NCBI GenBank assembly: GCA_947625555.1
Contig: CANQOT010000012.1
Coordinates: 1-48,316, forward strand
Reading direction: 5' to 3'
Source: an uncultured Clostridia bacterium
Lineage (GTDB): Bacteria; Bacillota; Clostridia; Christensenellales; Borkfalkiaceae
Length of the DNA: 48,316 bases
Positions 19,930 to 22,586 of the stretch are shown here, piece after piece. The notes below the pieces were generated by a model. That model ran no database searches, was not told the DNA's origin, and was given only the letters and a program-made list of their open reading frames with translations. The stretch's first letter is position 1. The number at the start of each line of letters is the position of its first letter. A program made the position numbers and the translations under genes.

Positions 19930-20368
19930 CATTGACTTTCATTCAATGTTTCGTGAAATCTACGAGGAAGCCCAACGGTACGACGGACCCTTTATGGATC
20001 GGCTGACATTTTACATGGTCACTTTTTCGGGACATATCGAAAGGGACGGACTTAAACTCTGCCAAGAATGGGTGCGCAATACCGTAGACCCCGATCTCGT
20101 GGAGAACCCCTACGACAAGGAAAAACTCCATATGGACAACGATTCCATGAAAGGAATGATACAAAAGGGCGTTGAACGGGGCGAACTCAAAGAAGATACG
20201 CCCGTAGACGCGCTCGCCGACGCCTTGACGGACGTCATTTACGGCGAAATGCTATGCTGGGATATGGCGGGCGGAGCGTACAGTTATGAGGAGCGAACCA
20301 AAAAGTTTTGCTCGATGTTTTTGCCCGCAATGATGAGACCATACTTAAACGGCAATGCCGAACAATAA
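19930..20368 (+). pseudogene. Remnant of a TetR-family repressor lacking its DNA-binding domain
   Basis: An ORF from ATG 19946 to 20368 (140 codons) corresponds only to the C-terminal ligand-binding/dimer part of a TetR regulator (MFREIYEEAQRYDGP, later GVERGELKEDTP and a C-terminal FLPAMMRPYL). No helix-turn-helix is encoded and no ribosome site precedes it. The first ATG is part of the inverted repeat CATTGA-7-TCAATG (19930-19948), which contains TGACTTTCATTCA, a TetR-operator-like sequence. A deletion seems to have joined the promoter/operator directly to the middle of the gene. An old promoter may survive (TTGACC at 19886, TATATT at 19911). An alternative is a stand-alone dimerisation protein, which I consider less likely. 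Confidence 0.7.
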
Positions 20369-20385
20369 AATAGGAGAAAACGAAG

Positions 20386-20540
20386 ATGAGTGAAATCAAA
20401 AAATTGGGATTCGGACTCATGCGACTGCCGCAAAAATCTGCTGCACAACCTCAACCGCTATCTCTACGACGCGGAAGTGAAAGCCTGTCATCTGTTCGAT
20501 TACATGAAGAAGTGGAAGCAGCAGGGAAAAATACGCCACG
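20386..20540 (+). pseudogene. Doubly deleted aldo/keto reductase remnant
   Basis: After a good ribosome site (AGGAG) and ATG at 20386 the sequence encodes MSEIKKLGFGLMRLPQK, the N-terminus of an aldo/keto reductase. At about 20437 it jumps, one frame over, to LLHNLNRYLYDAEVKACHLF and then KKWKQQGKIRH, an internal piece of the same family normally about 80-100 residues further on. The rest is missing and a terminator follows. In frame with the ATG only 54 codons remain (stop at 20550). A tetR followed by an aldo/keto reductase is a common operon, so both remnants probably decayed together. Confidence 0.72.
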
Positions 20541-20551
20541 CACATCCTAAT

Positions 20552-20577
20552 CCTTCCCCCAAAGGGAAGGTTTTTTT
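20552..20577 (+). terminator. Intrinsic terminator after the aldo/keto reductase remnant
   Basis: CCTTCCC (20552-20558), loop CCAAA, GGGAAGG (20564-20570), then seven T. It may be the original operon terminator or part of a dispersed element. Confidence 0.75.
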
Positions 20578-20600: not shown

Positions 20601-20629
20601 TTGACGCCGTCTCCCGTTTGTGATAGTAT
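20601..20629 (+). promoter_or_regulatory. Promoter of the SPFH operon
   Basis: TTGACG (20601-20606), 17-base spacer, TAGTAT (20624-20629). The expected start of transcription (about 20636) lies inside the paired operator. Confidence 0.75.
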
Positions 20630-20631
20630 TA

Positions 20632-20650
20632 TGATATCAAAATGATATCA
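20632..20650. promoter_or_regulatory. Paired TGATATCA operator at the SPFH operon start
   Basis: The 8-base palindrome TGATATCA occurs at 20632-20639 and 20643-20650, separated by AAA, so the centres are 11 bases (one helical turn) apart. It covers the expected +1. Tandem short palindromes one turn apart are typical of ribbon-helix-helix repressors, and the third-to-last partner in this operon is such a protein (21672-21851); autoregulation is inferred. Confidence 0.6.
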
Positions 20651-20666
20651 CCAAAGGAGGCATATC

Positions 20667-21602
20667 ATGGAAGTCAAGGATTTCGATAAAATTACCGAAA
20701 GACCCGCGAAGGAAAAGAGCGGTTGGGCGATGCTTGCCGTTACGATCGCGGTCATTTTGTGCGGGATCGGGCTGTTCGCGGCGGGCGCGGTGTTCCTCGA
20801 TGCAAGCGCAGCATTCGTTGCGCTCATGGTGCTGGGCGTGCTTGTCATTCTCTCGGGCCTCTTCCTTACCAGCGGCTTTAAGCTCTTGCAGCCCAACGAG
20901 GCCTATGTCCTCACGCTCTTCGGCAAGTACCATGGCACCATCAAGCGCGACGGATTTTATTGGGTGAACCCGTTCTGCGCGGCGGTCAATCCCGCCCGCC
21001 TCACGATGGGAGGGAAGAAGCTCTCCTTAAAGGCGATGACGCTCAACAACGACAAGCAGAAGGTCAACGACGAAGAGGGGAACCCCATCGAGATCTCCGT
21101 CGTCGTCATTTGGCGCATCACCAACACGGCGAAGGCTGTTTTCAACGTGGAAAATTATATGGCTTACCTTTCGACGCAGTGCGACGCGGCCATTCGACAG
21201 GTCGCGCGGCAGTACCCTTACGACGTTTCCTCCAACGGCGACGAGACGTCACTCCGCGGCAGTGCGCAGGAGATTGCCGAGGTCTTGCGTGTGGAACTAC
21301 AACAGCGCACCGAAATGGCGGGCATCGAGATTTTGGAAGCCCGTATCTCCCACCTCGCCTACGCGCCCGAGATCGCGGCGGCCATGTTGCAACGCCAGCA
21401 GGCCTCGGCCATCATCGCGGCAAGGCAGAAGATCGTGGAAGGAGCCGTCTCCATGGTGGAGATGGCGCTCAACAAGCTCTCGGAGGAGAACGTCGTCGAG
21501 CTCGACGACGAACGCAAGGCGCAGATGGTGAGCAATCTCCTCGTCGTCCTCTGCGGCAACCGCGACGCCCAGCCTGTCGTCGGCACAGGGTCGATCTACT
21601 AA
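20667..21602 (+). CDS. SPFH/Band 7 (stomatin-prohibitin-flotillin) membrane protein (311 aa)
   Basis: Two hydrophobic segments (about 20-42 and 47-69) precede an SPFH domain (about 70-280) with [19 protein letters not shown], the usual domain entry. The C-terminal helix-rich part includes the [18 protein letters not shown] segment typical of the family. SPFH proteins form membrane-associated rings and scaffolds; the bacterial role is poorly defined. A strong ribosome site (AAAGGAGG) precedes the ATG. Two small membrane proteins and an RHH protein follow, apparently as one operon up to the terminator at 22554. No protease (NfeD type) is adjacent, unlike many slipin operons. Confidence 0.9.
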
Positions 21603-21671
21603 ACGGACCCGCGCAAAAAATCAAATTGAGCGTCTCTTTTGGAAGGGGCAGAAATGGAATAAGGTGAGGGA

Positions 21672-21851
21672 ATGGACGACGAAAAAAGTACGGAAAAAAC
21701 AAAAAAGCAGGTGCCGCTCAGGCTTTCGCCATCGCTCTATGCCGAGCTCATGCGCTGGGCAGACGAGGAGTTCCGCTCTCTGAACGGGCAGATCGAGTAT
21801 CTGCTCACGGTGTGCGTCAGGAAGAGAAGGGGGGACGAAAAGCATGGATGA
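21672..21851 (+). CDS. Arc-like ribbon-helix-helix DNA-binding protein (59 aa)
   Basis: A short gene with AAGGTGAGG just before the ATG. After a charged N-terminus ([12 protein letters not shown]) comes [20 protein letters not shown], matching the Arc/CopG pattern: a beta strand (VPLRL) that contacts DNA as a dimer, then two helices with the turn at [12 protein letters not shown]. Such dimers bind operators made of short tandem sites. The stop overlaps the next ATG by eight bases, so the gene is translated with the small membrane proteins. Its likely target is the paired TGATATCA upstream of the SPFH gene (inference). It could also be a structural partner rather than a regulator. Confidence 0.8.
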
Positions 21852-22191
21852 AGCGCTCATCGTCGGCATCGTGCTGATCTCGATCTTCATCGTTGCCATG
21901 GTGTACATCTTTGCGAAGATCATCGGGTTCCAAAAGATGGTCGGGACGTACTTCTATCACTATGGGCCCCATAAGATCGCCGTCGGCGTCACCGCGAAGA
22001 GCCTTTCGCTCTACATAGACGGGGATCTCGTCGACGAACGCAAGGCGCTCAACGTCTATGTCTGCACGCTCTGTTCCGAACTCGGCGACGTCAGGATCCG
22101 CGCCCGCGTGGACGGGAGGTTGGGGCGCATGCGCGTCGGCGTGACGGCGGACGACGTTTCGCTGCCCTTCGACAGGAAAGAAGAGCGTTGA
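21844..22191 (+). CDS. Small membrane protein of unknown family, first paralogue (115 aa)
   Basis: Not recognised. One N-terminal transmembrane segment (about 5-27) is followed by an ~85-residue domain rich in predicted beta strands. It shares with the next gene the pattern Y-x-Y/H, then S/V-x-LY-I/V-DG-x-L-x-DE, a VC near the middle, I/V-K/R-AR and V/I-GV/L at the end, so the two are tandem paralogues of similar length. It starts inside the RHH gene (8-base overlap) and ends 10 bases before the second paralogue. By position it probably works with the SPFH protein at the membrane. Confidence 0.78.
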
Positions 22192-22201
22192 GGAGGGAAA
22201 T

Positions 22202-22543
22202 ATGCCCGAGGATACTTTGATCGCGTTGATTTTAACGATCGTTCTTACAGTGGCCGTGGTGGCGATCATCATTGCCGAGGTCGTCTGGATCACGAAAACG
22301 CATAAAAAATATTTATACAGCTTCCGTTCGCACGAGATCGTCTTTCGGGTCGCGCGGAATCGCGTGCAACTCTATGTCGACGGCGTTTTGGAGGATGAAC
22401 TCGGCGGTCTACGCGTCTGCATGTTGCATGCCACCGTGGAGGGCGTCGAGATCAAGGCGCGCTACGAGCTGCGTGGCTTCAAGGTGCAGATCGGCCTCTC
22501 GGCGGGCGGCACGCCCCTGCAACTCATGGGGATGGGAAAATAG
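22202..22543 (+). CDS. Small membrane protein of unknown family, second paralogue (113 aa)
   Basis: Not recognised; paralogue of the preceding gene with the same layout: N-terminal transmembrane segment (about 6-28), a basic stretch (KTHKK), then a soluble domain containing LYVDGVLEDE and VEIKARYELRG. GGAGGG precedes the ATG. It closes the operon, and a 14-bp terminator follows ten bases after the stop. Two related but different subunits suggest a hetero-oligomer (inference). Confidence 0.78.
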   Translation: MPEDTLIALILTIVLTVAVVAIIIAEVVWITKTHKKYLYSFRSHEIVFRVARNRVQLYVDGVLEDELGGLRVCMLHATVEGVEIKARYELRGFKVQIGLSAGGTPLQLMGMGK

Positions 22544-22553
22544 GGTTTGACGT

Positions 22554-22586
22554 AAAAGGGCGCTCCCTTGTCGGGAGCGCCCTTTT
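22554..22586 (+). terminator. Terminator of the SPFH operon
   Basis: AAAAGGGCGCTCCC (22554-22567) pairs perfectly with GGGAGCGCCCTTTT (22573-22586) around TTGTC: a 14-bp stem ending in TTTT. Confidence 0.9.

Follow-up and report, generated by a model that had tools for sequence, protein, structure and literature searches.

The SPFH proteins of bacteria have been divided into 12 subfamilies, and the excerpted text of that survey names, paired SPFH genes apart, no conserved partners outside the NfeD-linked subfamilies (Hinderhofer et al. 2009, PMC2636767). The other subgroups lack an adjacent NfeD gene, and the genes that accompany them are described in the same excerpts as unlike those of other SPFH operons (PMC2636767). 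In B. subtilis, the band 7 protein YdjI of the PspA-YdjGHI system is an adapter to PspA (excerpt of PMC9239133). A 2026 survey of Pseudomonas SPFH proteins describes no ribbon-helix-helix (RHH) type partner in its excerpted text (PMC13086221), and a Flavobacterium transcriptome study assigns a different type of promoter to two Band 7 genes (excerpt of PMC9723704). Among the matches listed in our literature search, no paper described an SPFH protein with an RHH partner; PMC8656257 was the only one of them to contain both "SPFH" and "ribbon-helix-helix", the latter, in the excerpt, within the title of a reference. The function and the stimuli of bacterial SPFH proteins thus far are largely open.

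Here we analyse a stretch of 48,316 nucleotides from an uncultured Clostridia bacterium (hereafter, the window) that carries an SPFH gene followed by an RHH gene and by two genes for small membrane proteins. Judged by sequence comparison, the conserved unit is SPFH, RHH and their predicted operator, and is smaller than the four-gene set.

Layout of the operon and its proteins

The initial annotation had proposed that SPFH, RHH and two homologous proteins with one transmembrane segment (115 and 113 aa) form a unit between two terminators. This was confirmed, with four same-strand ORFs at the positions that it gave:

20552..20570, + strand: intrinsic terminator 5' of the unit (7-bp stem, T run; -11.3 kcal/mol, z -2.6)
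20601..20629, + strand: predicted sigma-70 type promoter TTGACG-17-TAGTAT (motif scan; TTGACA-like element in relatives)
20632..20639, + strand: putative operator box 1, TGATATCA, overlapping the predicted transcription start
20643..20650, + strand: putative operator box 2, TGATATCA, at an 11-bp pitch from box 1
20653..20660, + strand: ribosome-binding site AAAGGAGG of SPFH (read in the sequence)
20667..21602, + strand: SPFH/Band_7 protein, 311 aa (PF01145; subfamily alignment A1; hydropathy)
21588..21599, + strand: SPFH C-terminal tail GSIY, residues 308-311 (motif accompanying RHH presence)
21672..21851, + strand: Arc-type RHH protein, 59 aa, predicted repressor (profile matches; linkage to SPFH)
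21844..22191, + strand: paralogue 1, 115 aa, one hydrophobic segment (start overlaps the RHH stop)
22202..22543, + strand: paralogue 2, 113 aa, one hydrophobic segment
22553..22587, + strand: intrinsic terminator 3' of the unit (15-bp stem, 5-nt loop; -31.9 kcal/mol, z -6.2)

The 3' terminator was identified from folding energy and is absent from the list of the initial terminator scan. Taken alone, the promoter motif is close to random expectation, the region containing 3 matches of this kind where 1.9 are expected. The ORF at 19946-20550 has TetR C-terminal matches below cut-off, and is followed by what we take, by eye, to be two joined aldo/keto reductase remnants.

The 311-aa protein carries the SPFH/Band 7 domain (PF01145 2e-28, 100 bits vs a cut-off of 23.6) and, by hydropathy, two N-terminal hydrophobic segments. 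It scores 22-29 bits against the SPFH3 (HflK/HflC) equivalogs, whose cut-offs are 134-660. No match to NfeD, by which SPFH1, SPFH2 and SPFH5 would be recognised, was found among the four proteins of the operon or in the ORF upstream.

According to the initial annotation, none of the small genes belonged to a nameable family. The paralogues have no Pfam or NCBIfam match above cut-off. The Pfam matches of the RHH protein (RHH_5) are below cut-off and its matches to ParD_like and HicB are weak; the profile of its family (A2), searched against solved structures, matches pArc (7.8e-8) and Arc repressor chains (7e-4 to 0.02), which places the protein among the Arc-type RHH proteins. It has 2721 relatives at E <= 1e-3, and nearly all of the best 120 of these 2721 are unnamed. 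Among 96 representatives, residues outside the DNA-reading strand are well kept: a Trp in 95%, a Phe in 91% and a Gln-Ile-Glu stretch in 97-98%. Such conservation would be expected of a second interface, but some of these residues may instead build the dimer core. RHH proteins without the first Gln of the recognition strand tend toward more deviant operators; this trend was left unused because the rows are few and related.

A predicted paired operator at the promoter

The paired TGATATCA sites that the initial annotation had seen over the predicted transcription start are present as TGATATCA-N3-TGATATCA at 20632-20650. The window holds these two copies of the box and no other (0.30 expected; two were reached in 3/100 shuffles). 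Genome-wide, the paired motif is found at the SPFH promoter and at one further place, where the gap is 4 bp, and a reversed-pattern control gives 0. This further pair (G000:C10; L001:1501-1520; L114) lies, by eye, before a minus-strand HicA-like/HicB-RHH-like operon, which suggests a similar RHH operator there. The literature matches listed for TGATATCA were unrelated by title.

In 200 genomes of the order, the exact TGATATCA-N3-TGATATCA pattern has 16 sites, one per genome (reversed control 0), and 15 of them are 17-132 bp 5' of an SPFH match (hand count). The sixteenth (L113:2015-2033) is about 22 bp before a gene for a 266-aa lipoprotein-like protein, in a genome (G091) in which no SPFH or RHH matches were found. 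With one mismatch allowed, 299 genomes of the phylum contain 51 sites (reversed control 12). Thirty-five of the 51, in 32 genomes, are within 350 bp 5' of SPFH, and one more (G409) falls slightly past this cut because the SPFH N-terminus is unmatched. The remaining 15 are close to the number of the reversed control: eight are in clear ORFs, two in small doubtful ORFs and five are intergenic. Chance occurrence of the operator is ruled out by the shuffle and reversed-pattern controls.

The five intergenic sites are diverse, two of them (L169, L181) preceding nothing evident. At L163:3129-3314 (minus strand), a lone RHH gene of the same kind, without SPFH, is preceded at about 22 bp by an operator with one mismatch and is followed by a gene for 157 aa. 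At L175:1736-2353, an operator-like pair directly precedes what by eye is a Phd/ParE-like toxin-antitoxin pair. At L176:1642-1660, in a genome (G488) that carries an SPFH-RHH module as well, a further operator with one mismatch precedes, by about 24 bp, a minus-strand gene for a 442-aa lipoprotein-like protein, which is a possible second target.

From 161 loci, with L131 dropped, 127 SPFH representatives (<90% identical, >=150 bp upstream) were drawn. The fetched DNA includes RHH for 100 of them, and in 94 of these 100 an operator with <=3 mismatches lies 5' of SPFH. Their best sites have 0 mismatches in 45 cases, 1 in 34, 2 in 11, 3 in 4, 4 in 2, 6 in 3 and 7 in 1, the shuffle mean being 6.5; in the 7-mismatch case (L154), the start is mis-set and a one-mismatch site falls in the "inside gene" control. 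Sixteen further representatives have a perfect operator with RHH absent from the fetched DNA, and 28 whole genomes were therefore searched. RHH was present in 21 of the 22 whole genomes of perfect-operator loci without RHH in the fetched flank, in some of them on a different contig from SPFH; the exception is the genome of L040, whose contig ends early. In the six others (L015, L016, L018, L080, L142, L150), whose SPFH genes lack an operator (best 6-7 mismatches), no RHH was found. Overall, a recognisable operator is missing in 9/10 SPFH genes without RHH, the tenth (L130) reaching the 4-mismatch limit, and in 3/115 with RHH (L014, L017, L128).

Across 112 aligned operators, from loci chosen for <=4 mismatches, the information content is 1.3-2.0 bits at each position of the boxes (1.35-2.0 in box 1). 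In these 112 loci there are 63 hits to a TTGACA-like element (<=1 mismatch) at a distance of 31 or 34 bp upstream of box 1, and the box starts within about 5 bp after the -10 element; this spacing indicates that the boxes cover the transcription start. For the RHH fold, two boxes at an 11-bp pitch suit two dimers on one face of the DNA. The RHH protein is thus predicted to bind paired sub-sites at its own promoter and, because of the position of the boxes, we infer with high confidence that it represses its own operon through them.

Linkage of SPFH and RHH across genomes

In the phylum sample, the SPFH subfamily is found in 68/299 genomes (E <= 1e-15) and the RHH profile A2 in 73/299 (E <= 1e-6). 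In 66 of the 68 SPFH genomes, RHH lies 9-261 nt 3' of the SPFH match, on the same contig and strand. SPFH is without RHH in G211 and G267. Seven RHH genomes have no SPFH hit, one of which (G382, L165) has an SPFH remnant (1e-10). The association has a Fisher p of 2e-55, for genomes that are not independent. In the order sample, hand counts give the subfamily in 33/200 genomes (E below 1e-70; 56 with remote SPFHs) and RHH (E below 1e-18) in 30 of these 33, split over two contigs in G093; those without RHH are G128, G154 and G178, and G103 has RHH with only a remote SPFH. Where other genes intervene, RHH is up to about 4 kb from SPFH.

The same arrangement extends beyond the phylum. Searches of plasmid records with tblastn detected SPFH, RHH and operator in Deinococcota, Actinomycetota, Alphaproteobacteria and Bacteroidota (Deinococcus QL22 and NW-56, Nonomuraea, Qipengyuania, Phocaeicola, Prevotella, Parabacteroides), with operators that vary between a perfect box joined to a worn one and T[GA]ATAT[CT]A pairs. 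In Bosea and Rhizobium, RHH is more divergent and the operator poor (4 and 6 mismatches). SPFH was found without RHH within about 2.5 kb in two Deinococcus plasmids (L132, L183) and in Enterococcus, Listeria, Teredinibacter and Vibrio records, and the best operators of these records have 5-9 mismatches. Two SPFH genes (L129, L130) are on short wastewater "phage" records that give the impression of Enterococcus/Listeria-type host DNA rather than phage genes. In a Pseudomonas plasmid record (L131, NZ_CP151545.1), SPFH is broken up over several frames, and it was excluded from the counts.

The two paralogues are, as initially annotated, in tandem and have one hydrophobic segment each; they are 30% identical to each other (E 1e-13). 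Their profile matches nothing credible among solved structures (best E 0.28). A word-based search of 5.8 billion proteins returned seven family members at E <= 1e-3, the two of the window included, and in the order sample the family is in 4/200 genomes, all of the genus of the window (4 of 7 sampled), with one weak hit besides (3e-5). In the fetched loci searched, 17 copies occur in 16 loci, the window counted as one, and in 14 of these 16 a paralogue starts within 282 nt of the start of the RHH domain. The two small membrane proteins therefore look like a local, lineage-specific addition. The idea of the four genes as one conserved unit is ruled out, the paralogues being confined, bar the weak hit, to the genus of the window. 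The co-occurrence expected in the initial annotation thus fails for the four-gene set outside close relatives, and passes for the core of SPFH, RHH and operator.

Other loci carry other neighbors. In L054, genes for an ABC transporter ATPase (2e-25), an ABC-2 permease (2.5e-20) and a 411-aa protein stand between SPFH and RHH. The 411-aa protein and a 292-aa protein at the same place in L060 have no match above cut-off, and the window has none of these four genes. Many sister loci (L037-L044, L046, L049, L060 and others) contain ORFs that are alike in size. After RHH, L081, L088, L104 and L047 encode proteins of 204-237 aa with hydrophobic segments and no Pfam match.

The C-terminal tail of SPFH follows RHH

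In 110 SPFH proteins with RHH, 89 columns are kept at >=93%. Six of them are kept in at most half of the 10 proteins without RHH, among which L116 was counted in this comparison. The least kept is the last residue, Tyr311 (1/10), followed by F97 (3/10, otherwise Tyr or Leu) and by D280, S289, C296 and V305 (5/10 each). After the remaining loci of the phylum sample had been added and near-duplicates removed, a tail G-x-[LIVM]-Y, with up to two extra residues, was found in 112/122 SPFHs with RHH vs 0/10 without, six of these ten resting on about 2.5 kb downstream in plasmid or phage-labelled records. L116, a second-copy case, keeps the tail and was left unclassified in this count. The 10 exceptions with RHH comprise two Phe ends, two with Ser for Gly before the Tyr, one deviant (L220) and five His/Asn tails, the latter from three Bacteroidota, a phage-labelled faecal contig and Bosea.

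The codons of the tail Tyr are TAT (63) and TAC (45). Conservation of the tail through translational coupling to the RHH start is ruled out, since 18/19 loci in which RHH is more than 300 nt away keep it.

A quick tree of 126 SPFHs was built without the tail, excluding L219-L224, L116 and the rows whose core was too short. In this set, with the Phe and Ser forms counted as tail, 111/116 proteins with RHH have it and 0/10 without. RHH changes seven times on the tree. Among six independent pairs, a difference in RHH is matched by one in the tail in 5.3 on average (median p 0.06) and by one in the operator in 4.2 (median p 0.125), with no pair opposed in either case; given the small number of RHH changes, these sign tests are weak. 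Taken together, the comparisons show a near-obligate linkage of RHH to SPFH, and show that RHH, predicted operator and tail occur, or are lacking, as a set. We infer, with moderate confidence, that the tail makes SPFH the protein partner of RHH.

Proposed mechanism and alternatives

We interpret the locus, with a probability of about 0.7, as an autoregulated membrane-scaffold module in which RHH would repress the operon and the SPFH tail would probably contact RHH. Two Arc-type RHH dimers would sit side by side on two TGATATCA palindromes, one helical turn apart, and from their place over the transcription start would repress the operon's only promoter. The circuit would serve SPFH, presumably a ring facing the cytoplasm, whose tail (...QPVVNxG[ST][LI]Y) probably provides the contact. 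Assembly, or the state of the membrane, would alter the amount of free repressor, and the scaffold would thereby tune its own expression, either by freeing or by strengthening the repressor. Additional genes would be lineage-specific cargo, such as the two one-TM paralogues in the window and, in one or more sister genomes, an ABC-2 exporter. A bolder form of the model, for which we see somewhat less than an even chance, is a membrane-to-gene switch that five or more phyla share: an SPFH cage would bind the 60-residue RHH repressor by its C-terminal tyrosine tails, microdomain assembly would directly de-repress (or co-repress) the operon, and the cargo, e.g. ABC exporters, would be interchangeable.

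That RHH controls the operon, as initially proposed, is strongly supported by the comparison, RHH and operator co-occurring and being missing together. Autoregulation alone accounts for this pattern. We regard plain negative feedback, in which RHH would limit operon dosage without any action of SPFH and the tail would serve something else that chanced to change along with it, as less likely than not. The 59-aa RHH is too short for a sensor domain, and SPFH positions besides the tail also differ in proteins without RHH, both of which fit such feedback. On the other hand, the last Tyr is, of the 89 conserved columns, the one most often lost without RHH, it holds where RHH is distant, and the Trp, Phe and Gln-Ile-Glu of RHH are kept at 91-98% outside the DNA-reading strand, even if some may only build the dimer core. 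A tether, by which RHH would link an SPFH patch to its own gene and keep the locus at the membrane, would also explain why tail and RHH go together and why 16 genomes have a single exact operator each, at the SPFH gene in 15; we consider it very improbable, as boxes on the promoter are a better fit to repression.

In the initial annotation, the two paralogues were to assemble with the SPFH ring in a regulated membrane complex. Gene order, with paralogue 1 overlapping the RHH stop, and the closeness of paralogue and RHH in 14/16 loci speak for this proposal, but the family is nearly confined to one genus, with very few members among billions of proteins, and the SPFH-RHH pair recurs with its operator in many genomes without paralogues. 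We found no support for such assembly and regard it as unlikely. A toxin-antitoxin module, with RHH as an antitoxin of the ParD/HicB type, would agree with the annotation of some RHH proteins as HicB or Arc, with the weak ParD_like/HicB matches and with the other paired site of the genome, before the HicA/HicB-like operon. However, no toxin family was recognised among the neighbors in the operon of the window and PADLOC gave no match there, the partner that recurs is an SPFH protein of 311 aa, and the best solved-structure matches are Arc repressors; we give this explanation very little weight.

That SPFH, RHH and operator nearly always go together, also across phyla, points to a self-regulated membrane module that had gone unnoticed. 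With a dedicated repressor, one operator at the promoter of the operon and a contact point that can be predicted, this SPFH subfamily would be testable: the operator could serve as reporter for the signal, and the tail offers a single-residue mutant. Small RHH proteins, a large family, and neighbors labelled HicB or Arc would also gain a function under the model.

Comparison with known systems

The closest regulators are the Arc repressor of phage P22 and other RHH autoregulators, to which the RHH protein is related by its profile match to Arc chains. The Arc operator consists of two adjacent sub-sites at the promoter of the regulator itself, and the window module is predicted to have the same layout. 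It differs from Arc in its operator, a TGATATCA pair, in having a constant SPFH partner and in being chromosomal. Type II systems such as RelBE and ParDE are alike in that a small RHH protein represses its own operon with the partner as possible co-repressor (RelE; excerpt of PMC2812701), and differ in that the partner in the window is a membrane scaffold, with no toxin recognised. In PspA-YdjGHI, too, a Band 7 protein is encoded together with membrane partners in a membrane-stress operon, whereas the excerpted text on that system does not contain the words RHH or ribbon-helix (PMC9239133). Finally, the SPFH-NfeD operons (QmcA/YbbK-YbbJ, YuaG-YuaF), as far as the excerpts describe them, share with the window module the N-terminal membrane segments, the SPFH domain and a partner gene in the same operon. 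The partner is NfeD there, and a DNA-binding protein here.
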